This document shows positions 3,024 through 22,803 of a stretch of 48,725 bases of DNA, in pieces. This DNA comes from Bacillota bacterium. GTDB taxonomy: Bacteria; Bacillota; Clostridia; CAKSNL01; HGM11501. The first letter of the stretch is position 1. Each line of letters begins with the position of its first letter. The notes beneath the pieces were generated by a model. It searched no databases, had not been told where the DNA came from, and saw only the letters and a list, made by a program, of their open reading frames with translations. Where the stretch lies: assembly GCA_030705805.1 (NCBI GenBank), contig JAUZPY010000003.1:1-48725 (forward strand), written 5' to 3'. Both the position numbers and the translations under genes were made by a program.

Positions 3024-3074
3024 TTGGTAGTACAATGCACAGATTTTTGTGTGGTCTGTGCATTGTACTACCAA
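3024..3074. repeat. Perfect 20-bp inverted repeat
   Basis: Arms 3024-3043 (TTGGTAGTACAATGCACAGA) and 3055-3074 are exact complements around an 11-base loop. The palindrome is too long and perfect for chance and lies about 85 bases upstream of the hyp operon promoter. It may be a terminator, a protein-binding site or a mobile-element remnant. Confidence 0.75.
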
Positions 3075-3157: not shown

Positions 3158-3186
3158 TTGACACATACTTTATCATATGATATATT
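3158..3186 (+). promoter_or_regulatory. Promoter of the hyp/hydrogenase operon
   Basis: TTGACA at 3158-3163 and TATATT at 3181-3186 are exactly 17 bases apart, a near-consensus sigma-A promoter. Transcription should begin near 3193, about 57 bases before the hypA start. No other convincing promoter is seen before the end of the operon at 18851. Confidence 0.75.
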
Positions 3187-3249: not shown

Positions 3250-3594
3250 ATGCACGAGACGGCATTAATTCAGAATTTAATAGTAGTTGCCCAAAAAACT
3301 TTGGAAGAGCATAATGTTAAACGCGTGAACAGCGTTACCTTGTCAGTCGGCAAATTATCTAATGCAATGCCTGATGCACTGTCTTTTGCGTTTGAAGCTA
3401 TGACACAGAGAGGATCGCTTAAAGGTGCGAAGCTTATAATGAAAGAGATTCCAGTAACAGTATGCTGTCTTGATTGCGGGGCTGAATACAATCCTTTGAA
3501 TTTTCCTATTATATGTCCTAAATGCAATAGCATTTATTATAAAATCACACAAGGTGAAGATATTTTCATTGAAAGTCTTGATTGTGAGTTTTAG
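3250..3594 (+). CDS. hypA: Hydrogenase nickel incorporation protein HypA
   Basis: A 114-residue HypA, the cytoplasmic nickel carrier that works with HypB to insert Ni into the [NiFe] hydrogenase large subunit. It begins MHE, the usual HypA N-terminus in which His2 helps bind nickel. A structural zinc site is formed by two CxxC pairs, C73/C76 (CLDC) and C89/C92 (CPKC). Length is typical. It is the first gene of the 15.6-kb hydrogenase operon, downstream of the promoter at 3158-3186, with GAGG upstream of the ATG. Eighty-four bases separate it from hypB, the only sizeable gap among the hyp genes, and that gap can fold over the hypB ribosome-binding site. Confidence 0.95.
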   Translation: MHETALIQNLIVVAQKTLEEHNVKRVNSVTLSVGKLSNAMPDALSFAFEAMTQRGSLKGAKLIMKEIPVTVCCLDCGAEYNPLNFPIICPKCNSIYYKITQGEDIFIESLDCEF

Positions 3595-3611
3595 TAATTC
3601 TATTAAACGAA

Positions 3612-3677
3612 GCGCAACCATTTTTCCGGCGAAAAAGGGTTTGCGCGCATATTTTTTAACGCGCCGGAGAAATGGGG
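3612..3677 (+). promoter_or_regulatory. Structured hypA-hypB spacer able to occlude the hypB ribosome-binding site
   Basis: Positions 3618-3631 pair with 3662-3675 over 14 bases (one G-U in RNA). The second arm contains GGAG at 3666-3669, the likely Shine-Dalgarno of hypB. A competing helix can form between GCGCAACC (3612-3619) and GGTTTGCGC (about 3638-3646), which would free the ribosome-binding site. The switch-like behaviour is an inference from the fold. Confidence 0.5.
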
Positions 3678-3678
3678 A

Positions 3679-4350
3679 ATGAAAATGTGTAAAATTGAAA
3701 TTGGAAAAGATTTAAAAGAGCTTAACAATGAAATTGCGGCAAAGAATCGAAATAGTTTTAAATTACATGATATATTTGTTTTAAATATTATGGGCTCACC
3801 GGGAGCAGGTAAAACAACTCTCCTGGAAAATATACTTCCCCTATTATCGGAAAAATATCATATTGTGGTAATAGAAGGCGATCTTGCTACAGAAAATGAC
3901 GCACAGCGTATAAGAAAAACAGGTGTAACAGCTCTGCAGATTAATACAAATGGGGGCTGTCATCTGGATGCGCATATGATACATCATGAATTTGAAAAAA
4001 TCAATGCGGCTGAAACAGAACTTATTATTATAGAAAATGTCGGTAATCTTGTTTGCCCGATATCATTTGATTTGGGCGAGGATCTCCGCATAGTTGTATT
4101 AAGTACTCCGGAAGGAGAGGATAAACCGCTTAAATATCCGCCGGCTATGCTGAAAACCGACGCAGTAATCCTTACAAAGACAGATCTTGCCGGATATGTA
4201 GATGTAAACACGGAAATAATGAAAAAGCATATTACGGATATTAATCCGCGTGTATGCGTTATGGAATCGGGTAAAATAAACGGCGTTTATTCAGCGGATA
4301 AAATAGTCAGCTATATTAAAGATAAAATAGAAGCTAAGAAGGTTTTTTAA
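3679..4350 (+). CDS. hypB: Hydrogenase nickel incorporation GTPase HypB
   Basis: A 223-residue SIMIBI-class GTPase that powers nickel delivery to the hydrogenase large subunit together with HypA. The P-loop is GSPGAGKTT (residues 39-47). IEGDLATENDA (about 65-75) is the switch region, and NGGCHLDAHM (91-100) carries the Cys94/His95 metal site at the dimer interface. The base-specificity motif appears as TKTD. The N-terminal histidine-rich nickel-storage stretch and CxxCGC motif of some HypB proteins are absent; only about 30 residues precede the P-loop. Start choice: ATG at 3679 has GGAG nine bases upstream; ATG at 3685 is also possible. The gene ends six bases before hypF. Confidence 0.95.
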   Translation: MKMCKIEIGKDLKELNNEIAAKNRNSFKLHDIFVLNIMGSPGAGKTTLLENILPLLSEKYHIVVIEGDLATENDAQRIRKTGVTALQINTNGGCHLDAHMIHHEFEKINAAETELIIIENVGNLVCPISFDLGEDLRIVVLSTPEGEDKPLKYPPAMLKTDAVILTKTDLAGYVDVNTEIMKKHITDINPRVCVMESGKINGVYSADKIVSYIKDKIEAKKVF

Positions 4351-4356
4351 AATAGA

Positions 4357-6606
4357 ATGATCAGATATTCTGTAAAAGTCAAAGGAATAGTTCAGGGTGT
4401 TGGGTTCCGCCCGTTTGTTTTTCGCTTAGCAAAATCGCTCTCGCTTTGTGGATTTGTGCGCAACACCTCAGAAGGAGTATACATTGAAATTGAAGGAGGT
4501 AATGATGACTGTGAAGCCTTTATTACCAAATTAAAAACAAATCCGCCGCCTTTGGCACATTTAGAAATGGTCAATTTAACAAAGATACCACTCGCAGGAG
4601 AACATGATTTTTTGATTCTGTCAAGTGATGCAGGAATTCGTAACACCTTAATATCACCGGATATCGGTATTTGTGATGACTGTGCGGCTGATATTGCTAT
4701 GAAAGGTAATCGCCGCTATAGGTATGCTTTTACAAATTGCACTAATTGTGGGCCGCGTTTCACAATTTTAAAAGATATTCCTTATGACCGCCAAAATACA
4801 ACAATGGCAGATTTCCCGCTATGCACGGACTGCCGTGAAGAATATGAAAACCCATACGACCGCCGTTTTCATGCACAGCCTAATGCATGCCATGTTTGCG
4901 GGCCGCAGCTGAGTTTTTATCAAGACGGAGAAATAGATTCACAAGACCCTTATGAATTATTTGATAGATCTATAGGCCTTGGTCAGATTGTCGCACTAAA
5001 GGGTATCGGCGGCTTTCATCTTGCCTGCGATGCAAAAAATGAAGAAGCGGTAAATCGACTTCGAAATAAGAAACTGCGATATGACAAGCCTTTTGCTGTG
5101 ATGATGCGGGATGTGGAAACGGTTCAAAAGTACTGTGAACTTGATGACATTGAAAAAGAAGCACTGTCTTCATCTGAAAAACCAATTGTACTTCTAAAAA
5201 AGAAAAAAGATTGTTTAATAGCCCAAAGTACAACGCTCTCAAATACCAGATTAGGCGTTATGCTTCCATATACTCCTTTGCATTGCTTGCTAATGCAGGA
5301 ACATGAAGCGATTATAATGACAAGCGGTAATCTCTCAGACTGCCCGATGATTTTTAATGATGAGGAAGCATTTTCCAAGCTTTTTCATGTTGCAGATGCC
5401 ATTCTTGCGCATAACAGGCAGATATTCCGCCGAATGGATGACAGCGTATGTATTATTATAAATGAAAAAACACATATGATAAGGCGTGCACGCGGATATG
5501 TTCCGCAGCCGCTTTATCTTTGTGAAAACAACGGTGTTATTCTTGCGATGGGAGCACAGCAGAAAAACACTTTCTGTCTTGCAAAAGGAGAAAATGCGTT
5601 TTTGAGTGGTCATATCGGGGATCTTGATAATGAGGATACGTCAAAGTGCCTTGAGAGCGAGATTGAATCTTTTATCCGAATTTTTGACGCTGAGCCTGAG
5701 GCCATTGCCTGTGATATGCACCCAGATTATGTATCTACAAGATATGCTTCACGTTACCGCGGGAAACTTCCAATATTTGAGATTCAGCATCATCATGCAC
5801 ACTTTGCTTCTGTGCTTGCAGAACATCAGCTTCGTGAAGAAAATGCAATCGGCTTGATTTTTGACGGAACCGGGTATGGCACTGATGGCTGTATTTGGGG
5901 AGGAGAATCACTTTTCGGTAACATAAAGGAAAGTACTCGTACGGGTCATTTGCTGTACTTCCCACTTTTTAGTAGTGAAGCCGCAATCAGGGAACCTTGG
6001 CGTATTGCCATTGCAGTAACTGATATGGCTGTGGGTAGGGAGACTGCCCTTTCGCTTTTTCCCGATTATATAAATGAAGCAAAAATATTGCTTCAGGCAG
6101 GTGAAAAGGAGCTAAATTCACCGCTTACTTCCTCCATGGGAAGGCTTTTTGATGCAGTCGCTGCCTTGATTGGAGTTCGCATGCATACAACTTATGAGGG
6201 GCAGGCAGCTATTGAACTACAGCAGATAATGGATGAATCTGCAAAAGGCAGTTATCATTTTCAACTTACTCGTGAAAATAACAGTATAATTTTTGACTGG
6301 CGACCACTTATTCGGGAAATTATTTCTGACTTAAAATCAGGTATTCACAAAGGTACAATATCGCTTCGGTTTCACCGCGCTGTTCTTGAGCTTATTACAT
6401 CTGTGGCTGTTTCTGTTCAAAGCAAGACAACTTGCGGTATAGTCGCGCTGTCAGGTGGTGTTTTTCAAAATGACTTTCTTTTGAAAAATGTTGTTCCCAA
6501 ACTTGAAGAAAAAGGATTTGTTGTATATTTAAACGAAAGAATTCCGACAAACGACGGCGGAATATCATTTGGACAAGCTGCTGCGGCTTCATATAGAATG
6601 AGGTGA
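4357..6606 (+). CDS. hypF: Carbamoyltransferase HypF
   Basis: A 749-residue HypF, which uses carbamoyl phosphate and ATP to carbamoylate the C-terminal cysteine of HypE on the way to the CN ligands of the Ni-Fe centre. Domain order is as expected: an acylphosphatase-like domain (residues 1-90, VQGVGFRPF at 12-20), a zinc-finger-like region with paired cysteines (CDDC, CTNCGPRF, CTDC, CHVCGPQ, about 105-185), a YrdC-like nucleotide domain (about 195-380) and a Kae1/HypF C-terminal domain with HHHAHFASVLAEH (about 478-490). Length is full. It starts six bases after hypB and its stop lies just before hypC, so it is translationally linked to both neighbours. Confidence 0.96.
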   Translation: MIRYSVKVKGIVQGVGFRPFVFRLAKSLSLCGFVRNTSEGVYIEIEGGNDDCEAFITKLKTNPPPLAHLEMVNLTKIPLAGEHDFLILSSDAGIRNTLISPDIGICDDCAADIAMKGNRRYRYAFTNCTNCGPRFTILKDIPYDRQNTTMADFPLCTDCREEYENPYDRRFHAQPNACHVCGPQLSFYQDGEIDSQDPYELFDRSIGLGQIVALKGIGGFHLACDAKNEEAVNRLRNKKLRYDKPFAVMMRDVETVQKYCELDDIEKEALSSSEKPIVLLKKKKDCLIAQSTTLSNTRLGVMLPYTPLHCLLMQEHEAIIMTSGNLSDCPMIFNDEEAFSKLFHVADAILAHNRQIFRRMDDSVCIIINEKTHMIRRARGYVPQPLYLCENNGVILAMGAQQKNTFCLAKGENAFLSGHIGDLDNEDTSKCLESEIESFIRIFDAEPEAIACDMHPDYVSTRYASRYRGKLPIFEIQHHHAHFASVLAEHQLREENAIGLIFDGTGYGTDGCIWGGESLFGNIKESTRTGHLLYFPLFSSEAAIREPWRIAIAVTDMAVGRETALSLFPDYINEAKILLQAGEKELNSPLTSSMGRLFDAVAALIGVRMHTTYEGQAAIELQQIMDESAKGSYHFQLTRENNSIIFDWRPLIREIISDLKSGIHKGTISLRFHRAVLELITSVAVSVQSKTTCGIVALSGGVFQNDFLLKNVVPKLEEKGFVVYLNERIPTNDGGISFGQAAAASYRMR

Positions 6607-6611
6607 AATTA

Positions 6612-6833
6612 ATGTGTCTTGCAGTTCCGGGAAAAATTACTGATATTAATGGCACAGATGCCAAAGTTGATTATAATGGCGTGTCAAAATATGCGAGCCT
6701 AAGGCTTGTGGAAAAAGCCGCAATCGGAGATATTGTCTTGGTGCATGCCGGCTTTATAATAGAAATTTTGGATAAGGACGATGGCGAAGAGCTTCAGAAG
6801 CTTATTGATGAAACAATGCGGTTAATAAAATGA
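6612..6833 (+). CDS. hypC: Hydrogenase assembly chaperone HypC
   Basis: A 73-residue HypC/HybG chaperone that carries the Fe(CN)2CO precursor with HypD and docks on the hydrogenase large subunit. The ATG at 6612 is chosen because it gives MCLAVPGK. Cys2 must become the N-terminus after Met removal and is essential in the family. An in-frame ATG nine bases earlier would bury that cysteine. AGGTG lies about seven bases before the chosen start. The reading frame overlaps hypD by four bases (ATGA), implying coupled, roughly equal translation, which fits formation of a HypC-HypD complex. Confidence 0.95.
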   Translation: MCLAVPGKITDINGTDAKVDYNGVSKYASLRLVEKAAIGDIVLVHAGFIIEILDKDDGEELQKLIDETMRLIK

Positions 6834-7891
6834 AATATAGTATTGAAGATTTGATAAAACAAATTAATTTTCTTGCAGACGGAGCAGGAGACATTGCAAT
6901 AATGGAAGTGTGCGGTACGCATACGGCAAGTATAAGAAAATTTGGAATAATGTCAATCCTGCCCGAAAATATAAAAATGGTATCAGGACCAGGATGTCCT
7001 GTATGTGTTACATCACAGGAAGATATTTCTGCTGCTGTTGCGATAGCAGACAGAGAAGGAGTTATTTTTACCTGCTTCGGTGATATGATGCGTGTTCCGT
7101 GTGATAGCACAAGCCTTTATTCTCTTTTTGAAAAAGGCAGAGATGTTCGGCTTGTTACTTCACCAATGGATGCAAAAAAGATAGCACAAGAAAATCCCGA
7201 AAAGCAAGTTGTTTATTTTGGAATAGGATTTGAAACTACGGCTCCGCATACAGCTGCATTGGTTGAGGAGGCGGACAAAGAAAAGATTAAGAACTTAAGC
7301 GTTCTGAATTCTCATAAGACCATGCCTTCGGCTATAAAACATTTGTTACAGGCTGACAGCAAAATAAGCGCGCTTCTTTGTCCGGGGCATGTGGCTTCAA
7401 TTATTGGCGCCGATGCATTTTCTTTTGTTCCGGACATACTTCATCTGCCGGCGGCAGTTGCCGGATTTGATGCATATGAAATTCTTGCGGCTATTTTGCG
7501 AATTTTGGATATGATTCATAGCAATAAAACCCAGTGTATTAACATGTATCCAAAAGCTGTGACAAAAAATGGCAACCGCAAAGCGCTTGAACTTTTATAT
7601 CAGGTAATGGAACCTGATGATGCACTTTGGCGCGGGCTTGGAAACATTCCTGAAAGTGGGCTGAAATTTCGAGAATACTACGAAGAATTTGATGCGCGAT
7701 ATAGGTTTGAAATACCAAAAAATAAAGCATCGGATGCAAATGGATGCGTATGTGCACATATTCTTCGCGGTAAGAAAATTCCAACCCAATGCATTCATTT
7801 TGGAAAAGACTGTACGCCTGATAATCCTGTCGGACCATGTATGGTATCGGCAGAAGGAAGCTGTGCTGCATACTATCGTTATAGGGAGTAA
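6830..7891 (+). CDS. hypD: Hydrogenase formation protein HypD
   Basis: A 353-residue iron-sulfur protein forming the scaffold with HypC on which Fe receives its CN and CO ligands. Conserved motifs are present: CGTHT (C28-T32), GPGCPVCVT (C56, C59) and a C-terminal cysteine cluster binding a [4Fe-4S] centre (CVC, then C in PTQCIHFGKDC, then GPCMVS and GSCAAYY). Length is typical. It overlaps hypC by four bases and is followed four bases later by hypE. Nothing essential appears to be missing, so the site should be functional. Confidence 0.96.
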   Translation: MKYSIEDLIKQINFLADGAGDIAIMEVCGTHTASIRKFGIMSILPENIKMVSGPGCPVCVTSQEDISAAVAIADREGVIFTCFGDMMRVPCDSTSLYSLFEKGRDVRLVTSPMDAKKIAQENPEKQVVYFGIGFETTAPHTAALVEEADKEKIKNLSVLNSHKTMPSAIKHLLQADSKISALLCPGHVASIIGADAFSFVPDILHLPAAVAGFDAYEILAAILRILDMIHSNKTQCINMYPKAVTKNGNRKALELLYQVMEPDDALWRGLGNIPESGLKFREYYEEFDARYRFEIPKNKASDANGCVCAHILRGKKIPTQCIHFGKDCTPDNPVGPCMVSAEGSCAAYYRYRE

Positions 7892-7895
7892 AAAA

Positions 7896-8900
7896 ATGGA
7901 TGATAAAATTATGCTTGCCCATGGGTCGGGCGGAGAAAAATACAGGGAACTCGTAAAAGAAATATTCTTACCTGCGTATTCCAACGAATTTCTTAATCCG
8001 CTAAACGATTCTGCCATACTCACGGGCGGAGAAAAAATTGCAATGACGACGGACAGTTATGTCGTAAAACCGTTGTTTTTTCCCGGCGGTGATATAGGAA
8101 GCCTCGCAGTTAGCGGAACAGTAAATGATCTTGCTGTCAGCGGAGCTTATCCTAAATATATTTCTGTGGGAATGATACTTGAAGCAGGGCTTTCTATGTC
8201 CACATTATCAAAAATTGTTGATTCTATTGCACGGACGGCGAAAGAAGCAGGTGTTCAAATAGTAACAGGAGATACAAAGGTAATTGAAAACAGGGGATCA
8301 TCTGACGGTATTTTTATAAATACTGCAGGTATCGGAATATTTCCAAAAGGCAGAGCTGTGCCGCAGCAAAAGATTGAAGTAGGCGACAGAATAATAATAA
8401 GCGGTTATGCAGCATCTCACGGCATGGCAGTTATGGCAAAGCGTGAAGATTTAGGTTTTTTGCCGCCAATTCTGAGCGATGCTGCTCCTTTAGGTGATTT
8501 AACCGCTGCAGTATTAAATAATAAAAATCATATTATTAACGCAATGCGCGACCCTACAAGGGGCGGTGTTGCGGCAACACTTTGTGAATGGGTGACAACA
8601 GATACAGATATTATTTTATATGACAATTCCGTGCCTGTGCGCCCGGATGTATCGGCAGCCTGCAGCTTGTTAGGGCTTGATCCGCTGTTTATTGCAAATG
8701 AAGGTATAATACTGCTTTGCGTTCCCGAAAGCTGTGCGGAAAGTGTGCTCACAAGCTTAAAAAGCAATAAACACGGAGAATATGCCAGAATAATTGGAGA
8801 GGTCAGAAAAGGAAACGCAGCAGTGAAGGCTGTAACAGAATTTGGCTCATACAGAAGAATTATGATGCCGAGCGGTGAGCTGCTTCCGAGGATATGCTAA
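7896..8900 (+). CDS. hypE: Carbamoyl-dehydratase HypE
   Basis: A 334-residue PurM/AIR-synthase-like protein that dehydrates the HypF-made thiocarboxamide on its own C-terminal cysteine to a thiocyanate, the cyanide donor. The start at 7896 gives MDDKIMLAHGSGGEKYREL, the usual N-terminus with its GSGG ATP-binding loop; GGGAG lies just upstream. The frame is open upstream to 7689, but that part lies inside hypD and is not translated here. The protein ends in PRIC, the invariant C-terminal motif whose cysteine is carbamoylated. ATP/metal motifs include TDSYVVKPLFFPGGD and DPTRGG. It is the last maturation gene; 37 bases separate it from the first structural gene. Confidence 0.96.
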   Translation: MDDKIMLAHGSGGEKYRELVKEIFLPAYSNEFLNPLNDSAILTGGEKIAMTTDSYVVKPLFFPGGDIGSLAVSGTVNDLAVSGAYPKYISVGMILEAGLSMSTLSKIVDSIARTAKEAGVQIVTGDTKVIENRGSSDGIFINTAGIGIFPKGRAVPQQKIEVGDRIIISGYAASHGMAVMAKREDLGFLPPILSDAAPLGDLTAAVLNNKNHIINAMRDPTRGGVAATLCEWVTTDTDIILYDNSVPVRPDVSAACSLLGLDPLFIANEGIILLCVPESCAESVLTSLKSNKHGEYARIIGEVRKGNAAVKAVTEFGSYRRIMMPSGELLPRIC

Positions 8901-8937
8901 AAATACAATATAACAAAAGTTAAGGTGATAGCAGAAA

Positions 8938-10353
8938 ATGAATGGATGGATCTTAATTACAGGTATTTTAATACCACTTTTGGGAGCTTTATTGCTTCCT
9001 TTGTTTGGAAAGTTGAGCGGAAAATTTAGAAATATAATGGCACTTACTTTTGTCACAACTGCCTTTATATTAGCAGTATGTGCTTTGACGGGCGTGCTTG
9101 CGGACAAGCCTTTTTCTGCGCGCTATGTTCTGCCACTCGGATTTAGCTTTGGCTTTTTAGGAGATGCTCTTGCTGTATTTTTGGCAATGACCGCCTCATT
9201 TGTAAGCTGCATTATTGTTATATACTCATTTGGATACATACACGAATATGAGAATCAAAATGAATACTACATGATGGTTTGCCTGTTTGTAGGAGCGATG
9301 ATGGGGCTTGTTTATTCGACGAATCTAATTGCTATTTATACATTTTGGGAAATATCTTCTTTATGCTGTTGGAGATTAATCGGGTTTTACCGTGAAGAAA
9401 TCACAATTGATCGGGCTAATAAAACATTTATTATTACCGTACTCGGTGCGCTTATTATGCTTGTTGGTTTCATGGGTATTTACAGTCAGACAGGCACTTT
9501 TGATCTTACTGAAATGAAGGGTGCATATATTCCTTCATGGTGCGTTGTTTTGATTTTGTTTGGTATACTTTCAAAATCGGCAACAATCCCCTTGCATAGC
9601 TGGCTCCCTGATGCCGGCGTCGCTCCTTCCCCTGTTACTTCGCTTTTGCATGCGGCAGTTCTTGTTAAGATAGGTGTTTATGCTTATGCAAGGTTTTTTG
9701 TTTTGACTTTCGAAATTAATGAGGCTTTTACCACAATAGTTCCTGTCATAGCCGCGGTAAGTGCGTTATACAGCGCAGGTGTGGCATTTCGAGAAAATGA
9801 TATTAAGCGAGTCCTTGCATATTCAACAATCAGCCAGCTTGCATTTATACTGCTTGGCTTGTCATGCGGAGAAAAAATAGGAATTATCGGCGGGCTTATG
9901 TATATAATGGCTCACAGTGTTGCAAAGGGCGGATTGTTCCTCTGCGCAGGTATCGTGGAGCATAATATTCACACAAAGGATATCAGAAAGATGGGCGGCC
10001 TCGCAAAAACTATGCCGTTAACGGCTACAGCATTTGCATTATGTGCTTGTTCCATTATGGGGATTCCTCCGTTTTTCGGCTTTTTTACAAAGCATATGGT
10101 AATAGAAGGTATTGTTTCTTCCGGGAATATAGTGCTTGGGGTGTTGTTCGTTCTTTGTGCTGTTATGACGGTAATGTATTTAATACGTCTTTTTGTTAAA
10201 GTGTTTTTTGGTCAACAGACTTTTTCAGAGGTAAAAGAAGGTACGCCAATCATGGTTGTATCAGTTTTAATATTAGGAATAATATCACTTTTACTGGGAT
10301 TTTTCAGTTTCCTGCCATCACATCTTGCGACAATGATCTGGGGGTTGATGTAA
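8938..10353 (+). CDS. Group 4 hydrogenase membrane subunit, NuoL/NuoM-type antiporter (first of three)
   Basis: A 471-residue integral membrane protein with about 14 helices, of the Mrp-antiporter/NuoL-NuoM family. It should form one ion-translocation channel in the membrane arm. Family landmarks are the buried glutamate in YTFWEISSLC, the broken-helix motif LHSWLPDAGVAPSPVTSLLHAAVLVK cut here into LHSWLPDAG and SLLHAAVLVK (lysine in the helix), and lysine-rich half-channel residues such as DIKRVLAYSTISQL. There is no C-terminal lateral helix, so it is NuoM-like in length. The start has AAGGTGA upstream. It is the first structural gene after hypE and abuts the next gene by one base. Known relatives are HyfD/HyfF and Mbh/Ech antiporter subunits. 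Confidence 0.88.
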   Translation: MNGWILITGILIPLLGALLLPLFGKLSGKFRNIMALTFVTTAFILAVCALTGVLADKPFSARYVLPLGFSFGFLGDALAVFLAMTASFVSCIIVIYSFGYIHEYENQNEYYMMVCLFVGAMMGLVYSTNLIAIYTFWEISSLCCWRLIGFYREEITIDRANKTFIITVLGALIMLVGFMGIYSQTGTFDLTEMKGAYIPSWCVVLILFGILSKSATIPLHSWLPDAGVAPSPVTSLLHAAVLVKIGVYAYARFFVLTFEINEAFTTIVPVIAAVSALYSAGVAFRENDIKRVLAYSTISQLAFILLGLSCGEKIGIIGGLMYIMAHSVAKGGLFLCAGIVEHNIHTKDIRKMGGLAKTMPLTATAFALCACSIMGIPPFFGFFTKHMVIEGIVSSGNIVLGVLFVLCAVMTVMYLIRLFVKVFFGQQTFSEVKEGTPIMVVSVLILGIISLLLGFFSFLPSHLATMIWGLM

Positions 10354-10354
10354 A

Positions 10355-12196: not shown

Positions 12197-12229
12197 TTAA
12201 AATATATGTTTTACTTTGAGGATGGTATT

Positions 12230-13693
12230 ATGAATTATCTTAATTATGCAGGGGAAGCATTTTTGCTTATACCTCTTTCTGCGATCTTTTTAAACAATAT
12301 TTGTAACAAACGTTTTATAGAAAAACACTTTCACATACTGACAGGAGCGGTTGCATTACTGCAGATGATAGCTGCTGTATTTGCATTTTATATCATGGAT
12401 GCAAATCAAATGCTAAATTTTGATTTCAGCGTTTTTGGCAGTTCAAAAATTACGGGCATTGAATTGTTTGATATCAATCCTGTTTCGCTTGTATTTCTGT
12501 TTTGCATCGGAATGGTTGCATTTGTATCGGTTATGATTTCGATTCGCACAATCGATGTGAAAAAAGGTTCTTATGTTAACCTTTTAATGACATTGCTTAT
12601 CGGAATGAACGGTATGGTAATGGTGAGCGATCTCTTTTCCTTGTATGTATTTCTTGATGTAATAGGCATATCAAGCTTTGTTATGATTGCCATGTTTCGT
12701 TCAAGAAAAGGGTTGGAAGGTTCAATTAAATACCTTATTATTTCGGAAATTGCCAGTATTTTTATACTAATGGGGCTTTCATTTATTTCAATGAAAACCG
12801 GGAGTTTGTCCTTTAAAGATATAGGAAGAAATCTTTTGACGAACACCTTTGAACTACAGACAATATTGATATATGCCGCAATTATTCTTATGATTGCAGG
12901 ATTTTCAATAAAAGCAGGCATCGTGCCTTTTCACAGTTGGCTGCCTGATGCGCATCAAAGTGCAGATACATCAATATCAGTCCTCTTGAGCGGTATTGTA
13001 ATAAAAATTGCCGGTATCTATGGAATTTATGTACTTACAAATATATTTGGAGGCATAAAAGCTTATCAAGTCTCACTTGCTGGACTCGGAATAATATCTG
13101 TTGTAGTAGGTGCACTGTTAGCTGCCTGCCAGAGTCATTTCAAACGTATTGTTGCATATTCAAGTGTCAGCCAGATGGGATATATTCTGCTTGGTCTGAG
13201 CACAGGAAGTACGCTTGGCATTGTAGGTGCTGTTGCACATGTATTCAGCCATGCGGCATTTAAATCCACATTATTCACAAATGCCGCCGCTATTCATGAG
13301 CAGACCGGAACTTTGGAAATCGACGAGATGGGCGGGTTACAGAGCCGTATGCCGGTAACTGCTTTTTCTTCTACGATTGCTTTCCTTTCTACGGCTGGTA
13401 TTCCTCCGTTTGCTGGATTCTGGAGCAAGCTTCTTATTGTAATGGCACTGTGGGGCTCGGGTAATCAGATTTTAGCAGGTTTTGCACTTTGTGCGAGTAT
13501 TCTCACTTCCGCATATTTTCTTAGACTTCAGAAAAAAGTATTTTTCGGGAAAACGCCAGAGCATCTCTCATCCGTTACGGAAGTTACAGGAAGTATTAAA
13601 TTCGCTGAAATTCTACTTACGGCAGTTACCTGCATTGTAGGGGTATTATTCCCGTTGATTATAATATTTCTGCATAGCAGAGGGTTAATTTAA
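12230..13693 (+). CDS. Group 4 hydrogenase membrane subunit, NuoN/MrpD-like antiporter
   Basis: A 487-residue membrane protein, the third antiporter-like subunit. It has about 14 helices, the motif FHSWLPDAHQSADTS followed by LLSGIVIKIAG (channel lysine), and HFKRIVAYSSVSQMGYILLG. The glutamate position in helix 5 reads YVFLDVIGISSF, that is Asp where most NuoL/M/N proteins have Glu; MrpD-type proteins vary here and the effect is uncertain. The ATG at 12230 is chosen over an in-frame ATG at 12206 because GAGG sits eight bases upstream of it and nothing precedes 12206. The next gene follows after 12 bases with AAGGAGG. Confidence 0.86.
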   Translation: MNYLNYAGEAFLLIPLSAIFLNNICNKRFIEKHFHILTGAVALLQMIAAVFAFYIMDANQMLNFDFSVFGSSKITGIELFDINPVSLVFLFCIGMVAFVSVMISIRTIDVKKGSYVNLLMTLLIGMNGMVMVSDLFSLYVFLDVIGISSFVMIAMFRSRKGLEGSIKYLIISEIASIFILMGLSFISMKTGSLSFKDIGRNLLTNTFELQTILIYAAIILMIAGFSIKAGIVPFHSWLPDAHQSADTSISVLLSGIVIKIAGIYGIYVLTNIFGGIKAYQVSLAGLGIISVVVGALLAACQSHFKRIVAYSSVSQMGYILLGLSTGSTLGIVGAVAHVFSHAAFKSTLFTNAAAIHEQTGTLEIDEMGGLQSRMPVTAFSSTIAFLSTAGIPPFAGFWSKLLIVMALWGSGNQILAGFALCASILTSAYFLRLQKKVFFGKTPEHLSSVTEVTGSIKFAEILLTAVTCIVGVLFPLIIIFLHSRGLI

Positions 13694-13705
13694 GGAGGTA
13701 TATAC

Positions 13706-14200
13706 ATGGCAACAATTATTTATATCAGTTTGGCTTTCCTGTTAATTTTCTGTGTTATGGCAGTGATGTCCCACAGCTTGTTAAAGTCGGCGATTTACCT
13801 TGCCCTGGCAAGTGCAACGCTTGGTGTAATATTGTATGTTCTGGGTGCTTATTGGGCTGCAGTTATTGAAGTATCCGTATGCTCGGGGCTCATTACAGTT
13901 ATATTTATAAGTGCAATAAGCCTTTCTAAAATCAAAAAAGAAGAGGTTCAAAAGCTGTATTCCGATAAAAAACGAATGTGGTTTTTGCCTGTTATGTTGA
14001 TTGTTGTGGGAGTTGCTCTTATTGTACTTGCTTTAGCTAATGACTTATCTTTGACAAATACTGCAGAAAAAGTAACGGAGGACTTCCGTGAGATTTTCTG
14101 GAACACCCGTCAAGCTGATATTATAGGACAAATAGTCACAATTTTAATCGGTGGAATCGCAGTCTTTGTATTATTCAGGGACGATGAAGATAAAAAATAA
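13706..14200 (+). CDS. Group 4 hydrogenase membrane subunit, NuoJ-like
   Basis: A 164-residue membrane protein with about five helices. The N-terminal half reads HSLLKSAIYLALASATLGVI and AAVIEVSVCSGLITVIFISA, the pattern of NuoJ and of the MbhD/DUF4040 type, with a conserved glutamate in the third helix. A charged loop (residues 72-90) and two more helices follow. In complex I NuoJ links the quinone/catalytic junction to the antiporter arm, and its third helix changes shape during turnover. An AAGGAGG site lies eight bases before the ATG. Weak similarity to NuoJ makes the exact subunit name an inference supported by gene order. Confidence 0.8.
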   Translation: MATIIYISLAFLLIFCVMAVMSHSLLKSAIYLALASATLGVILYVLGAYWAAVIEVSVCSGLITVIFISAISLSKIKKEEVQKLYSDKKRMWFLPVMLIVVGVALIVLALANDLSLTNTAEKVTEDFREIFWNTRQADIIGQIVTILIGGIAVFVLFRDDEDKK

Positions 14201-14233
14201 ATTAGTCAACTATATAGAAAGAAGGAGATTTTT

Positions 14234-14542
14234 ATGTTGAATTTTCAAACAATTATGCTGTTTGTTGGCTTTTTAATGATAATTGCAGGCTGTTACTGCA
14301 TGATTCGTACATATCACATGCTAAAAATTATTATTGGAATAGAGGTTGCAATGAAGGCTGTAACAATGTTTCTTATTTTGGCAGGATATATGAACGGACA
14401 TATGGGGCTTGCGCAGGCTTATGTTATCACAGCCATAGTTATTGAAGTTATTGTTGCGGTGGTTTTTGCGGGTGTTACAATAGGGCTCTATAAAAAATAT
14501 GGAAACATGGATATCCGTAACCTGACGGAACTGAAAGGATAG
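14234..14542 (+). CDS. Group 4 hydrogenase membrane subunit, NuoK/MrpC-like
   Basis: A 102-residue protein with three membrane helices. Two buried glutamates expected for NuoK are present: IIIGIEVAMKAV (about residue 37) and ITAIVIEVIVAVV (about residue 75), corresponding to Glu36 and Glu72 of E. coli NuoK that carry protons along the hydrophilic axis. Length matches NuoK and HyfE/MrpC relatives. It is preceded by AAGGAG and lies 33 bases after the NuoJ-like gene and six bases before the NuoA-like gene, the usual J-K pairing of complex I operons. Confidence 0.85.
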   Translation: MLNFQTIMLFVGFLMIIAGCYCMIRTYHMLKIIIGIEVAMKAVTMFLILAGYMNGHMGLAQAYVITAIVIEVIVAVVFAGVTIGLYKKYGNMDIRNLTELKG

Positions 14543-14548
14543 AGTGAT

Positions 14549-14869
14549 ATGGAATCAGTATTATATTCTCCTCCGGTATTATTTACCTTAATATTAATAT
14601 CTTTAATGGTATTTTCGAAATGGTTGTCAAGGTTTTCAAGCAAAAAAGAATCAGGAGAGCATGCGCTGGACTCATATGCATGCGGTCAGCGTGATGTTGA
14701 AAACTATGTAAACCCCGATTACAGCAACTATTTTTCGTATGCATTTATTTTTACTGTTGTACACATATTAATACTTGTTGTGGCGACTGTCCCTGCCAAC
14801 GTTCTGTTCACTCCTATTATTTATATTTTTTCAGGTATACTTGCAATTTTTATTGCGTTTAAGAGGTGA
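14549..14869 (+). CDS. Group 4 hydrogenase membrane subunit, NuoA-like
   Basis: A 106-residue protein with three predicted helices (about 8-25, 60-80 and 85-103). The loop after helix 1 contains DSYACGQRDVENY, resembling the Y-x-C-G loop of NuoA/ND3 that touches the junction between the catalytic and membrane arms. NuoA-like subunits are small and poorly conserved, so the call rests on topology, this motif and position next to the NuoB-like gene. Separate NuoA-like genes are absent from Ech and Hyc hydrogenases, which makes this subunit notable. Confidence 0.7.
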   Translation: MESVLYSPPVLFTLILISLMVFSKWLSRFSSKKESGEHALDSYACGQRDVENYVNPDYSNYFSYAFIFTVVHILILVVATVPANVLFTPIIYIFSGILAIFIAFKR

Positions 14870-14875
14870 TAAACT

Positions 14876-15340
14876 TTGAGTCTTATAAAAAAAGCAATTG
14901 ATTGGGGAACGAAAAAATCCCCATGGATTATTCATTTCAATGCCGGCGCCTGCAACGGCTGTGATATTGAAACAATTGACTCGCTTACTCCGAGGTATGA
15001 CTTGGAGCGCGTTGGTATTTTAAAACAAGGAAGCCCGCGCCATGCAGATGTTTTAATATGCACCGGTGCTGTAACATTGCAGACAAGAGACAGGCTTATA
15101 CAAATTTATGAACAAATGTCTGATCCGAAATTTGTAATTGCTATAGGCACTTGCGCATGTACAGGTGGCATTTTTGAGGACTGTTATTGTGTTACAGGCG
15201 GCATTGACAGCGTAATTCCCGTTGATGTTTATATTCCCGGCTGTGCAGTACGTCCCGAAGCTATTATCAGCGCGGTAGATAAGCTTCTTGGCAGTTTAGA
15301 CAATGACAAAAAAGAAGGTGGCGGCAATTATGAATCGTGA
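14876..15340 (+). CDS. [NiFe] hydrogenase small subunit, NuoB/EchC-like
   Basis: A 154-residue small subunit binding the proximal [4Fe-4S] cluster that passes electrons to the Ni-Fe site. Ligands are visible as GACNGCDIE (C26, C29), GTCACTGG (C93 most likely) and PGC (C123). CNGCDIE is typical of group 4 (Ech, Hyc, Mbh) small subunits. No twin-arginine signal exists, so the subunit faces the cytoplasm. The start is TTG at 14876 with GAGGTGAT just upstream; it begins MSLIKKAIDWGTKKSPWI. It overlaps the next gene by 11 bases, indicating coupled translation. Confidence 0.93.
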   Translation: MSLIKKAIDWGTKKSPWIIHFNAGACNGCDIETIDSLTPRYDLERVGILKQGSPRHADVLICTGAVTLQTRDRLIQIYEQMSDPKFVIAIGTCACTGGIFEDCYCVTGGIDSVIPVDVYIPGCAVRPEAIISAVDKLLGSLDNDKKEGGGNYES

Positions 15341-15842
15341 AGAAGCAATAGTAAATTCTATTTGCGGCAGATTTCCTTTTTTGGCAGATAGAATATATAT
15401 TCAGAAGGATAAACGCATATTTACTAAATCGCTTTTAAGAGAAGAATTTGAACAGGTAATAGCGTATGTTCACGATGAATTGAATTTTACCCGTGTCAGT
15501 CACGTTGTCGGCACAGATGACGGTGAAAATTTAGGACTTCTTTATATTTTTTCCGGCAGTGAAGATATACTTCTGATATTAAGAGAAAGTGTGCCAAAAT
15601 CAAATCCGGTGATAAAAAGCATATCAGATATGTATCCGTCAATTGTACTTCACGAGCGCGAGCTTGTAGATCTTTTTGGAGTCGTAGTCGAAGGGCTTCC
15701 TGAAGGACCTCATTATCCACTTCCCGACGGTTGGCCGGAGGGTAATTACCCTATGCGGAAGGAATGGAATCCGAAGCATTTTAACAAAGATACCATGACC
15801 TATGAAGAACCTCAGGAAAAGGAGGTACAGAAGAATGAGTGA
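15330..15842 (+). CDS. [NiFe] hydrogenase subunit, NuoC/EchD-like
   Basis: A 170-residue homologue of the 30-kDa complex I subunit. The signature is HERELVDLFGVVVEG, PHYPLPDGWPEGNYPMRKEW near the C-terminus. It packs beside the large subunit in the cytoplasmic catalytic module. ATG at 15330 is preferred to an in-frame ATG at 15303 because AAGGTGG lies about nine bases upstream. It overlaps the small-subunit gene by 11 bases and the large-subunit gene by 8. In E. coli Hyc and Hyf this domain is fused to the large subunit; here it is separate, as in Ech and in many bacterial complex I operons. Confidence 0.9.
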   Translation: MNREEAIVNSICGRFPFLADRIYIQKDKRIFTKSLLREEFEQVIAYVHDELNFTRVSHVVGTDDGENLGLLYIFSGSEDILLILRESVPKSNPVIKSISDMYPSIVLHERELVDLFGVVVEGLPEGPHYPLPDGWPEGNYPMRKEWNPKHFNKDTMTYEEPQEKEVQKNE

Positions 15843-17061
15843 AAATATAAGCAATAATAATAAAATAGTTCTTCCAATCGGACCGCAGCATCCATCCCTT
15901 GATGAACCCGGCAGATTCGATATTACATTGGAAGGTGAAAAGGTTGTAAATGCGGTTGTCGGTGTAGGATATAATCACAGAGGGCTTGAAAAGGTTTGTG
16001 AAAGCAAAAATTATATTCAGGATTTATATATAATAGAACGTGTCTGCGGAATCTGTTCTCATTCTCACAGCACCGCATTTTGCATGGCTGTTGAAGAGCT
16101 TGCAGGTGTTACTGTTCCACAACGTGCGGAATATATCCGTGTAGTCGTAGCAGAGCTTGAACGTCTGCACAGTCATTTGTTATGGCTTGGTGTTGCCTGC
16201 CACGAAATTGGTTTTGATACAATGTTCATGTACACATGGCGTGACAGGGAAAAAGTGCTTGATGTATTGGCTACTGTCGGCGGAAACCGCGTAAATTATG
16301 GCATTAACACTATAGGGGGTGTCAGAAGGGATTTCAATGAAACGATAAATTCCGAAATTCTTAAAACCGTAGATAGCCTTGAAGAAGACATAAAACGTTA
16401 TCTTGAAATTGCTATGACGGAAACCACGCTTATTTCAAGGCTTAAATCTAAAGGTAAGCTGTCCCATGAGGATGCATTAAAATATGGCGCAGTAGGGCCT
16501 GTTGCCAGGGCTGCGGGAATTGCAATTGATATTCGCGTAACAGAGCCTTATGGTGCGTATAAGGAAATACCTGTTAATGTAATAACAGACACCAATGAGG
16601 ATGTTTACGGAAGAACTGCTGTACGAATTCTTGAAATGCAGGAAAGCATCAACATCATCCGCTATTGTATAAATAATATGCCTGAGGGTACATTGACGGT
16701 TAAGGTGCCACGCAGAATACCGGCTGGTGAAGTCATAGTCCGTGTTGAAGCACCACGCGGTGAAGATATTCATTATCTGCGTTCAAACGGGACAGATATT
16801 CCGGACAGAGTACGTGTCCGCGCCCCTACTGAAGCAAACTGGCATGGTATGAAGCATATGCTTAAGGGCGGAAATCTTGCGGATGTCCCTATAACAATTG
16901 CGGCAATTGACCCATGTTATTCCTGTACTGACCGCGCAATAGTCATTAGTTCTGAAAAAAATACTGAGGTTATGGATTGGCGGGGTCTCCGTCGGTACGG
17001 TATTGACTGGTATAAGAAGCAGAATATTGATTTAACTTCATTAAAAATTAAAGAGGTCTGA
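15835..17061 (+). CDS. [NiFe] hydrogenase large (catalytic) subunit, group 4, NuoD/EchE-like
   Basis: A 408-residue catalytic subunit. The L1 motif RVCGICSHSHS supplies C71 and C74 and the L2 motif DPCYSCTDR supplies C361 and C364, the four Ni-Fe ligands lost in complex I NuoD. It should therefore reduce protons or oxidise H2. After R367 come 41 residues, comparable to the C-terminal peptide of HycE that is removed after DPCYSCT-x-R; the HycI-like protease encoded at 18369 fits that job. The N-terminus GPQHPSLDEPGRFD and NHRGLEK are family hallmarks. ATG at 15835 has AAGGAGG nine bases upstream; an upstream in-frame ATG at 15802 lies inside the previous gene. Confidence 0.96.
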   Translation: MSENISNNNKIVLPIGPQHPSLDEPGRFDITLEGEKVVNAVVGVGYNHRGLEKVCESKNYIQDLYIIERVCGICSHSHSTAFCMAVEELAGVTVPQRAEYIRVVVAELERLHSHLLWLGVACHEIGFDTMFMYTWRDREKVLDVLATVGGNRVNYGINTIGGVRRDFNETINSEILKTVDSLEEDIKRYLEIAMTETTLISRLKSKGKLSHEDALKYGAVGPVARAAGIAIDIRVTEPYGAYKEIPVNVITDTNEDVYGRTAVRILEMQESINIIRYCINNMPEGTLTVKVPRRIPAGEVIVRVEAPRGEDIHYLRSNGTDIPDRVRVRAPTEANWHGMKHMLKGGNLADVPITIAAIDPCYSCTDRAIVISSEKNTEVMDWRGLRRYGIDWYKKQNIDLTSLKIKEV

Positions 17062-17062
17062 T

Positions 17063-18004
17063 ATGATAGAATTCTTGAAAATTTTATGTAAATTATTTAT
17101 TTTTCCCGGATTTCTGTTTCTGTCTGTGTACAGTTTTCTGCTGGACTTTTTGGATCGTAAATTGTATGCGCGTATGCAGAACCGTGTCGGCCCGCCGTGG
17201 TATCAACCGCTTGCCGATTTTTTAAAACTAATCGGAAAGAAAACGATTATTCCTGCTGATGCTAATGCAGTAATATTTTCTGTCATGCCCCTTGTCTCAC
17301 TTGCGGCTGTGACAGTAGGTTTTATTTATTTGCCTGTACTTGGCAAGGAAGCTATTTTTTCTTTCAGCGGTGACTTTGTAATTGTATTATACTTATTGGC
17401 AATACCTCCACTTGCTGCATTTTTAGCGGGATGGTATTCAAGGGCTGTTTACTCTACTATAGGAGCTACACGTATCCTTACGCAAATGTTTGCATATGAG
17501 GTACCCCTGTTTATTTCTGTGCTTGCGCCCACGCTTATTGCCGGGACATGGTCAATAACTGAACTGACAGGGTTTTATGCTGCGCATCCGCTGTATATTT
17601 TTATTAATTTACCGGTTGCAATCACAGCATTAATTTCATTCCAGTGCAAATTGGAACGCGCTCCTTTTGACTCTCCTGAAGCTGAAACTGAAATTGTATC
17701 AGGAGCACTTGTGGAATACAGCGGCAGACTGCTAGCATTCTTTAAATTAGCTCATAACTGTGAACTGTTATTTGTAATATCACTTTTCTCGGCAATATAC
17801 CTGCCGTTTATGACCGGCATTATTTGGGTTGATTTTATTTTGTATATTGTAAAGACATTGTTTATTCTTCTGTTACTTATACTTATGCGTGTAACAATGG
17901 CAAGAATTGAAATTAACAATACTTTAAATTTTTGCTGGAAATACTTAGCGCCCGTTACGTTGGGGCAGGTAATATTAAATTTGCTGTTAAGAGGTGTACT
18001 GTAA
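17063..18004 (+). CDS. Group 4 hydrogenase membrane subunit, NuoH/EchB-like
   Basis: A 313-residue membrane protein with about eight helices. Family motifs are LDRKLYARMQNRVGPPWYQP (first cytoplasmic loop) and ERAPFDSPEAETEIVSGALV plus EYSGRLLAFFKLAH. NuoH anchors the catalytic arm to the membrane and forms the E-channel with acidic loop residues, which are retained here. It follows the large-subunit gene by one base with AGAGGTCTGAT upstream, and ends two bases before the ferredoxin-like gene. Relatives include HycD, EchB and MbhM. Confidence 0.93.
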   Translation: MIEFLKILCKLFIFPGFLFLSVYSFLLDFLDRKLYARMQNRVGPPWYQPLADFLKLIGKKTIIPADANAVIFSVMPLVSLAAVTVGFIYLPVLGKEAIFSFSGDFVIVLYLLAIPPLAAFLAGWYSRAVYSTIGATRILTQMFAYEVPLFISVLAPTLIAGTWSITELTGFYAAHPLYIFINLPVAITALISFQCKLERAPFDSPEAETEIVSGALVEYSGRLLAFFKLAHNCELLFVISLFSAIYLPFMTGIIWVDFILYIVKTLFILLLLILMRVTMARIEINNTLNFCWKYLAPVTLGQVILNLLLRGVL

Positions 18005-18006
18005 TT

Positions 18007-18372
18007 ATGAAAAAGACAGGGCCGGGCAGAATTACATTTCGTGCAATTAAAAATTTATTTAAAAAACCTGCAACTACATCCTATGCAGGCAAAGGCAAAC
18101 CTTGCGTTGAAAAAAAATACCGCGGACGCATATGTTACGATAAAACCGATTGTATCAACTGCGGCCTTTGCATGCGTGACTGCCCTACAGGTGCATTGAA
18201 AATTATCAATGAGGGAACAAAAGAAGATAAAAAATTGAAAGCTGTTTTGAATGTTGGTCACTGTATTTTCTGCTGTCAATGCGTTGATTCCTGTATGAAA
18301 AAGTGCCTGACATATTCGCAGGATATTGATTTTGCGACTACAAACAAGGCTGATCTTACGGTAGAGCTATGA
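18007..18372 (+). CDS. Hydrogenase electron-transfer subunit, NuoI/EchF-like 2x[4Fe-4S] protein
   Basis: A 121-residue polyferredoxin. Cluster 1 is C49/C52/C55/C59 (CINCGLCMRDCP). Cluster 2 is C86/C89/C92/C96 (CIFCCQCVDSC), with an extra C90 and C100 nearby and Met instead of the usual Pro after the last ligand. It should accept electrons, most likely from soluble reduced ferredoxin, and relay them to the small-subunit cluster. The first 30 residues are basic (K/R-rich) and may contact the membrane or NuoH-like subunit. The ATG at 18007 is the first with a plausible GAGGTG site; an upstream in-frame start lies in the preceding gene. It overlaps the protease gene by four bases. Confidence 0.92.
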   Translation: MKKTGPGRITFRAIKNLFKKPATTSYAGKGKPCVEKKYRGRICYDKTDCINCGLCMRDCPTGALKIINEGTKEDKKLKAVLNVGHCIFCCQCVDSCMKKCLTYSQDIDFATTNKADLTVEL

Positions 18373-18851
18373 AACTGCAATCTTTTTTACAGAAGAAAAT
18401 ATCAAAAGGGCAGAAGACGGCTATAATAGGTGTCGGCTCTGTTTTGCGGTCAGATGATTGTGCAGGAATGCATTTTATTGAAAAACTTTCAAGTTACATC
18501 CAAAATGAAAATATGCTTTTAATTGGAGGCTCAACAGCGCCTGAAAACTTTACCGGTGTAATCAAAAATTTTGCTCCGGATAGGCTGTTCATTGTAGACG
18601 CGGCACATATGGGACTTAATGTGGGCGAGATACACGTGCTTGATATTCTTGAAATTGACGGTATTTCATTTTCAACTCATATGCTTCCGCTGCCTGTAAT
18701 GCTGGAATTTCTTAAACTTGAAATCGGATGTGAAGTAATCTGTATCGGAATCCAACCGAAAAACACTGAATTGGGTTTTTCTATGTGCGAAGAAGTAGCC
18801 GCAGCATCCGAAAACCTTGCAAAGATGTTTTGCGAAGCTTTTAACGGATAG
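18369..18851 (+). CDS. hycI: Hydrogenase maturation endopeptidase, HycI-type
   Basis: A 160-residue protease of the HycI/HupD family that trims the C-terminal tail of the large subunit after nickel insertion. Motifs are GVGSVLRSDDCAG (D29/D30), VDAAH (D77) and STHMLPL (H104); these Asp and His residues bind the nickel that serves as recognition signal. It overlaps the NuoI-like gene by four bases (ATGA), so it is made with the enzyme it processes. It is the last gene of the operon. The call agrees with the 41-residue tail seen on the large subunit. Confidence 0.92.
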   Translation: MKLQSFLQKKISKGQKTAIIGVGSVLRSDDCAGMHFIEKLSSYIQNENMLLIGGSTAPENFTGVIKNFAPDRLFIVDAAHMGLNVGEIHVLDILEIDGISFSTHMLPLPVMLEFLKLEIGCEVICIGIQPKNTELGFSMCEEVAAASENLAKMFCEAFNG

Positions 18852-18913: not shown

Positions 18914-19205
18914 TTAATAATCAAAAGATTTGCTTTCTATGTGCCAAGTTCTCTCATCAGTAAAAGATAGAACTTGGCATTTATGAGTTAGTCTGTCAAA
19001 GAATGCAGTGGCAAGCACTGCATCTCCAAGCATATCCGCCCAGCCATCAAACCCCTTATTAGAGGTTGTAATTACAGAAGTGTTCTCGTAAATATGAGTG
19101 GAAATAACATTAGTGTAAAGATGTTGGATTTAGGGGTTGATTTTGATAAGGTTAAAAGCAATTGAATTTATTGGTGGAAAAATTTTATAGTCAAACTCAC
19201 AAGCT
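18914..19205 (-). pseudogene. Decayed istB (IS21-family transposition ATPase) remnant
   Basis: On the minus strand a frame reads FDYKIFPPINS, then one stop codon, then [20 protein letters not shown] and [20 protein letters not shown], ending SKSFDY-stop at 18914-18916. These match IstB in order: the FDFSFQPSI element, the YENTSVIITSNKGF.EW element, the DRLLHHC element. The central ATPase part (Walker A and B) is missing, so an internal deletion plus a stop have destroyed the gene. No istA or terminal inverted repeats are visible. It marks an old IS21-type insertion just behind the hydrogenase operon. Confidence 0.75.
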
Positions 19206-19429: not shown

Positions 19430-19506
<77 letters not shown>

Positions 19507-19730: not shown

Positions 19731-19775
19731 AAAACAAACAATCCTCAAGGCTTAGCCTTGCGGATTGTTTGTTTT
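19731..19775 (-). terminator. Terminator of the ABC-transporter operon, containing its last stop codon
   Basis: Arms AAAACAAACAATCC (19731-19744) and 19762-19775 enclose a second stem AAGGC/GCCTT (19747-19751, 19755-19759). The loop TTA at 19752-19754 is the minus-strand stop codon of the ATPase gene. The last codons of that gene therefore lie in the hairpin, which is flanked by A/T runs. Confidence 0.8.
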
Positions 19776-22781: not shown

Positions 22782-22803
22782 ACCAAGCACTTCCTTTATT
22801 ACC

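Follow-up and report, generated by a model that had tools for sequence, protein, structure and literature searches.

The DNA analysed here, a stretch of 48,725 nt hereafter called the window, is one complete contig of a 2.0-Mb, 94%-complete, 152-contig assembly of an uncultured anaerobic Bacillota bacterium (genome G000), and carries on its forward strand, at 3250-18851, a block of 18 genes comprising hypABFCDE, eleven structural genes and hycI. Our analyses make it highly probable that this locus specifies a complete group 4 energy-converting [NiFe] hydrogenase, built on the architecture of respiratory complex I without its reduced nicotinamide adenine dinucleotide (NADH) module and accompanied by its own HypABCDEF and HycI set, and that it was acquired horizontally, hyp genes included. 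An enzyme of this kind is already known in the archaeal Hfo, and the placement of hypABFCDE beside a hydrogenase is ordinary in Ech-type clostridia; the unusual part is the occurrence of a complex-I subunit set together with a [NiFe] site. How complex I evolved out of membrane-bound hydrogenases, and whether ion pumping is a function of every one of its antiporter-like subunits, are open questions in the field, to which such a locus would be of use as an extant relative of that complex.

Identity and composition of the encoded enzyme

The 18 genes lie head-to-tail on one strand, with spacings of -38 to +37 bases and a largest gap of 84 bases between hypA and hypB, as a first-pass annotation of the same DNA had stated (gaps under 90 bases), and every identity given there was upheld by Pfam and TIGR profiles. 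That annotation had correctly counted eleven structural genes but missed their composition: they map one-to-one onto the complex I core subunits NuoA, B, C, D, H, I, J, K, L, M and N, while NuoEFG are not found in the block. Three antiporter-like subunits come first: subunit 1 (8938-10353, 471 residues) is NuoL/HyfD-like (PF00361, E = 2.5e-72), subunit 2 (10355-12196, 613 residues) is NuoL-like at full length, including the C-terminal lateral-helix region (NuoL model over residues 14-611 of 613), and subunit 3 (12206-13693) is NuoM/N-like (PF00361, 2.1e-65). They are followed by the NuoJ-like gene (13706-14200; PF00499, 1.6e-9), the NuoK-like gene (14234-14542; PF00420, 1.4e-16), whose product retains both membrane glutamates in the alignment, the NuoA-like gene (14549-14869), the NuoB-like small subunit (14876-15340; PF01058, 5.7e-31), the NuoC-like gene (15303-15842; PF00329, 1.1e-18), the NuoD-like [NiFe] large subunit (15835-17061), the NuoH-like gene (17063-18004; PF00146, 5.7e-69) and the NuoI-like gene with two 4Fe-4S motifs (18007-18372; PF12838, 7.5e-9; TIGR01971, 6e-19). 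The hycI endopeptidase gene (18369-18851) closes the block. Gene starts were corrected in four cases: the large subunit probably begins at 15835, behind the ribosome site AGGAGG, and the probable starts of hypC, hypE and the NuoI-like gene are the Met-Cys ATG at 6612, 7896 and 18007, respectively.

The large subunit retains all four nickel-binding cysteines, in the motifs CGICSHSH (L1) and DPCYSCTDR (L2), and extends beyond them in a 41-residue C-terminal tail. Tails of 28-54 residues occur in the other members of its clade, whereas Ech-type large-subunit chains from the same class stop immediately behind the L2 motif. HycI scored 128.7 bits against the TIGR00142 cut-off of 119.1 (1.4e-37), which together with the tailed large subunit identifies it as a protease of the HycI type. 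The hallmarks of group 4 are likewise present, namely the L1 CxxC and L2 DPCxxC pairs in the NuoD-like subunit, the cluster cysteines of the NuoB-like subunit, a NuoH-like anchor and antiporter-like subunits. The identification as a hydrogenase thus follows from the nickel cysteines, the tail, the hydrogenase-type CxxC..C..C of the small subunit, HycI, the Met-Cys start of HypC and the PRIC end of HypE. The 23 large subunits compared form one clade (support 99/98), and among solved structures the nearest to that of the window were the large subunits of Mbh (PDB 6cfw, E = 3e-95) and formate hydrogenlyase (7z0s), with complex I after them. It is hardly credible that the locus encodes an ordinary complex-I-like oxidoreductase with no hydrogenase activity. 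Its eleven subunits do correspond to the complex I core, and the NuoD, NuoB and NuoH models gave the highest profile scores for the corresponding subunits of the window, but such an enzyme is contradicted by the four nickel cysteines, which the aligned complex I large subunit lacks, and by the tail, HycI and HypA-F.

The NuoA-like subunit is the least certain of the eleven assignments. On its own the protein gave no Pfam match at 0.001, and a direct phmmer search with it found none either; PF00507 (NuoA), however, is the sole Pfam family to which each of the 12 aligned members gave a match, with a best value of 1.8e-4. The model has three helices and a long first loop, and the gene adjoins the NuoB-like gene, as in nuo operons. 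By the register of an ND3 alignment, the Asp/Glu pair of the second helix of ND3/NuoA is replaced by His72/Leu74, invariant across the alignment, and the histidine position is also retained in distant relatives save one, which has Glu.

Comparison with known complexes

The closest described counterpart is Hfo, an 11-subunit Fpo-like [NiFe] hydrogenase of Bathyarchaeia that was presented as closing an evolutionary gap (Loh et al. 2021, PMC7886697). Judged by subunit set and published description, both share the eleven complex-I core subunits, an intact [NiFe] site and the lack of an NADH module. Hfo keeps the fpo/nuo gene order, whereas here the L/M/N-type antiporter genes precede J-K-A-B-C-D-H-I; moreover, the present locus is bacterial, with clustered hypABFCDE and hycI. 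To Hfo it would add a bacterial branch with many genomes and several gene orders, a permutation of nuo among them, as well as a NuoA lacking the customary acidic residues and one pump module lost to different degrees, with the lateral helix kept. No report of this bacterial branch was found in the open-access literature on relatives of hydrogenases and complex I, which is a weak negative.

The Ech hydrogenase (group 4e) of Clostridium thermocellum has the same hypABFCDE order beside its hydrogenase genes (Clo1313_0564-0575, PMC4355364) and is membrane-bound and ferredoxin-linked, the latter being a predicted likeness here. It differs in having six subunits, EchABCDEF, as against eleven, and the Ech-type large subunits examined, 43-46% identical to the present one, are untailed, as against a 41-residue tail. 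The Mbh of Pyrococcus furiosus (group 4d, PDB 6cfw) provides the closest solved large subunit, but its single large antiporter subunit, MbhH, is accompanied by Mrp-type subunits, where the present locus has three antiporter-like and NuoA/J/K-like subunits; no Mrp B/E/F/G-type family, as would represent the sodium module MbhABCF, was found by Pfam among the 18 genes. With formate hydrogenlyase/hydrogenase-3 (group 4a, PDB 7z0s) the locus shares a HycI-type protease and DPCYSCTDR followed by a tail, yet the block is devoid of formate dehydrogenase and HycB-type genes, and NuoC and NuoD are separate where HycE is fused. The 11-subunit complex-I-like enzyme of Desulfitobacterium and other anaerobes (PMC11238625) has the same subunit set and likewise no NADH module, but it is a relative of complex I and no hydrogenase; [NiFe] ligands and Hyp genes distinguish the present locus from it, as nickel ligands do from respiratory complex I itself.

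Distribution and gene order among relatives

A scan of a genome collection recovered 12 clostridial metagenome-assembled loci with 65-79% identity, and a 399-genome sample of the phylum yielded 14 matches at 53-74%, three of which apparently came from genomes already recovered by that scan. Among 390 other genomes sampled from the window's class, identities did not exceed about 48%, and the operon is absent from three genomes of the same family. That the class might be empty of the operon was rejected, as the carriers G391, G399, G400 and G401 branch among same-class genomes on the RpoB tree.

The full structural set was found in at least 16 other genomes from the phylum, in the order of three antiporter genes followed by J-K-A-B-C-D-H-I-hycI, which is strict in the nearer relatives. 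In four more distant ones (G779, G511, G432 and G546, 53-56% identity; loci L114-L117) the order, or part of it, is J-K, three antiporter genes, A-B-C-D-H-I(-hycI), which is the canonical nuo order in rotated form. Among these, hyp genes occur in L114 only, and a NuoI-like gene was undetected in L115-L117.

Probable horizontal transfer of the operon

Phylogenetic comparison of the operon with RpoB revealed a reciprocal conflict. RpoB places G000 with its own family (support 100/100) and rejects a clade with the carriers G391 and G400 (approximately unbiased test, p-AU 4e-7; 2e-60 with carriers only). With the operon proteins, the window instead falls beside loci L024 and L015 (99/98), and the grouping that RpoB gives to L015, L024 and L023 is rejected in turn (p-AU 4e-56). 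HypCDE agree with the structural genes in their main groupings, including the same six-member clade (100/99), which implies that hyp moved with them. The sequences flanking the block differ between carriers, save in the sister species that carry L020 and L021. Transfer of the operon together with its maturation genes is thereby well supported, and the transferability proposed in the first-pass annotation stands in this comparison of operon and species trees. A plasmid-borne origin was also considered and rejected: 261 plasmid records were matched, all below 60% identity.

Vertical inheritance with many losses, the tree conflict reflecting poor resolution, is in our estimation very unlikely. 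It would agree with the branching of some carriers among same-class genomes on RpoB and with the weakness of the deep RpoB branches, but the rejections are reciprocal, and the operon is missing from the three same-family genomes and from the sampled same-class genomes at anything above the limit given above.

The apparent transfer might instead be an artefact of binning or assembly, with the left 19 kb derived from another organism, which we regard as improbable. On its right side the contig belongs to G000, and its left flank is ambiguous. We assign the contig to G000 because gyrB and vanW are adjacent on its right side, as they are in the same-family genome G001 (74% and 46% identity), and because the composition of the operon fits G000 best among the genomes tested: its tetranucleotide fit is 0.66 to G000 against 0.56 to G391, 0.43 to G400 and 0.45 to G431, and its guanine-cytosine content is 39.5%, compared with 38.3% in G000 and 47-51% in the latter three. 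An artefact would be easier to understand in an assembly of 152 contigs and with a remnant of an IS21 istB gene bordering the operon on its right; the contig was, however, assembled through this remnant.

Some observations weigh against our interpretation of the locus and its history. The left flank (770-2386) encodes a Beta-CASP metallo-beta-lactamase ribonuclease-like protein whose best match among those searched is in the operon carrier G391 (59%, compared with 50% in the same-family genome G002), which leaves a small probability of a join near 19 kb. The species tree is that of RpoB alone, built without the poor sequence of G037, and all named carriers are metagenome-assembled. Placement of the large-subunit clade inside the Mbh, Ech, Hyc or G037-type group was neither favoured nor excluded in any case (all p-AU at least 0.29). 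The PF00507 value of the window's NuoA-like protein, 0.0011, is under the curated cut-off, which makes that assignment weak by sequence, and its model gave zero matches in Foldseek. Finally, a hydrogen activity coupled to ion translocation is a prediction for this branch.

Apparent decay of one antiporter-like subunit

Subunits 1 and 3 retain the acidic residue of transmembrane helix (TM) 5, the lysine of TM7, the histidine or lysine of TM8 and the lysine of TM12, with Asp for Glu in TM5 of subunit 3. Subunit 2 of the window has lost several of these residues, the TM7 lysine being replaced by Met and the Glu-Lys of TM8 by Gln-Val. Its sister locus L024 has Gln in TM7, Asn-Gly in TM8 and Glu instead of the TM12 lysine, and in L016 the TM7 lysine is Ile and residues 325-486 (window numbering) are deleted, an internal deletion common to L016 and L017. 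As L017 also lacks parts of antiporter-like subunit 1, NuoB and NuoC, its truncations may be assembly faults, and only the deletion shared with L016 was used. The lysines of subunit 2 are retained in L015 and G431, of the same clade, and in every other complete relative checked.

Identity over the core of subunit 2 drops to 42-54% in pairs that include a degenerate copy, compared with 64-70% in intact pairs, while the C-terminal end is 49-60% identical in degenerate and intact pairs alike. The branch-length ratio of subunit 2 to subunit 1 is about 4.5-6.5 for the degenerate copies and 0.8-3.3 for the others; these values are approximate, the C-terminal cut having been applied to the window row only, and the core and C-terminal identities are independent of that cut. 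Taken together, these features suggest that constraint on the channel has been relaxed and the lateral helix retained, and the apparent decay of subunit 2 constitutes the most testable new point of this study. We suggest, as a tentative idea that may well prove wrong, that an eleven-subunit bacterial branch is spreading horizontally with its maturation genes while the activity of one antiporter module out of the three is being lost. If true, it would provide a natural series with differing numbers of intact pumping modules within one enzyme type.

Maturation genes

The block opens with hypA (3250-3594; PF01155, 1.1e-29), for nickel insertion, with its zinc motifs CxxC..CxxC, and hypB (3679-4350; PF02492, 2.7e-23), a GTPase for nickel delivery with the P-loop GSPGAGKTT. 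These precede hypF (4357-6606), with five of five HypF domains in Pfam, for carbamoyl transfer towards the cyanide ligands; hypC (6612-6833; PF01455, 6.7e-23), an iron scaffold starting MCLAVPGK; hypD (6830-7891; PF01924, 7.8e-139), the Fe(CN)2CO scaffold; and hypE (7896-8900; PF00586/PF02769), a thiocarboxamide dehydratase. With HypA-F and the endopeptidase all in the block, every described [NiFe] maturation step is indeed encoded with the enzyme, as first proposed. HypD is single-copy in G000, so these are, as far as HypD shows, the only hyp genes of the genome. The block looks like a maturation-plus-enzyme set and might serve as a candidate unit for heterologous expression.

Two further statements of the first-pass annotation have to be tempered. 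A hyp cluster beside the hydrogenase is not unusual: in C. thermocellum hypABFCDE (Clo1313_0564-0569) adjoin echABCDEF (0570-0575) (PMC4355364), and hyp genes are similarly placed beside hydrogenase genes in Caldanaerobacter (PMC4596419). The description of the locus as a self-sufficient unit is too strong, as the block lacks nickel uptake and ferredoxin genes. A genome with the same structural genes and unrelated hyp genes elsewhere, regarded by that annotation as evidence against such a unit, was encountered in part: in G398 the structural genes (L022) and hypFCDE (L066) are separate, yet these hyp genes branch with the operon lineage. No hyp genes adjoin the block of G747, G766 and G706 (56-58% identity) within the stretch fetched.

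Predicted working mode

Reduced ferredoxin would most likely deliver electrons to the NuoI-like subunit, from where they would travel by way of the NuoB-like cluster to the [NiFe] site of the NuoD-like subunit. There, if catalysis runs in this direction, protons would be reduced to H2, and the energy released would drive ion pumping by the NuoH-like and antiporter-like subunits. HycI is expected to cut off the large-subunit tail once nickel has been inserted. The likeliest working mode thus appears to be one in which ferredoxin is oxidised, H2 released and ions exported, and the locus may represent the sole hydrogenase of the genome. About 6% of the genome is missing and each genome-level absence is accordingly provisional, including that of [FeFe] hydrogenase, which was not found in G000 and is present in all 11 genomes compared, the same-family G001 among them. 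The same holds for single-chain pyruvate:ferredoxin oxidoreductase, none of which scored over the cut-off in G000, unlike in G001, and the source of reduced ferredoxin is therefore a difficulty for this mode; weak matches to separate subunits of that enzyme were located on contig C91.

The main functional rival is operation mostly in the uptake direction, with the ion gradient driving the reduction of ferredoxin by H2 in the service of reductive metabolism, which we judge to be unlikely though worth serious attention. Such a role has been proposed for the archaeal Hfo by Loh et al. (PMC7886697). It would also suit the lack of a detected single-chain pyruvate:ferredoxin oxidoreductase and the presence of Rnf (RnfC above cut-off in G000), by which ferredoxin is already tied to the ion gradient. 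The failure to find an [FeFe] hydrogenase suggests, on the contrary, that in a fermenting organism this enzyme would have to handle H2 evolution.

Regulatory and flanking sequences

A promoter-like site at 3158-3186 of the forward strand (TTGACA-17-TATATT, with TG before the -10 box) matches the consensus at 11 of 12 positions, the top score in the stretch scanned. The near-consensus promoter of the first-pass annotation is thus confirmed as a match, but a match alone proves nothing here, because one minus-strand site inside the operon scores equally and 81 promoter-like sites were found against 56 expected. One transcript may span the block. The gap between hypA and hypB contains a 14-bp hairpin on the forward strand (about 3618-3675; -26.8 kcal/mol, z -2.4) that takes in the region of the hypB ribosome site. 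Its interpretation as a repeat element was rejected, as the genome contains no other full-length copy. This gap is shorter in nearer relatives such as L104 (about 40 bases) and L106 (about 8).

Upstream of the operon, two inverted repeats were read by eye, one at about 2735-2765 (atgcaccaca..tgtggtgcat) and a perfect one of 18 bases at 3026-3073 (ggtagtacaatgcacaga..tctgtgcattgtactacc). Just beyond hycI, the IS21 IstB ATPase remnant mentioned above occupies 18932-19078 on the minus strand (49 residues; PF01695, 5.5e-12), with a methionine transfer RNA gene nearby at 19430-19506. Further to the right, a Crp/FNR-type regulator (22128-22790, minus strand) lies near an ATP-binding cassette transporter with a phosphonate/NMT1-type binding protein (19752-22061).

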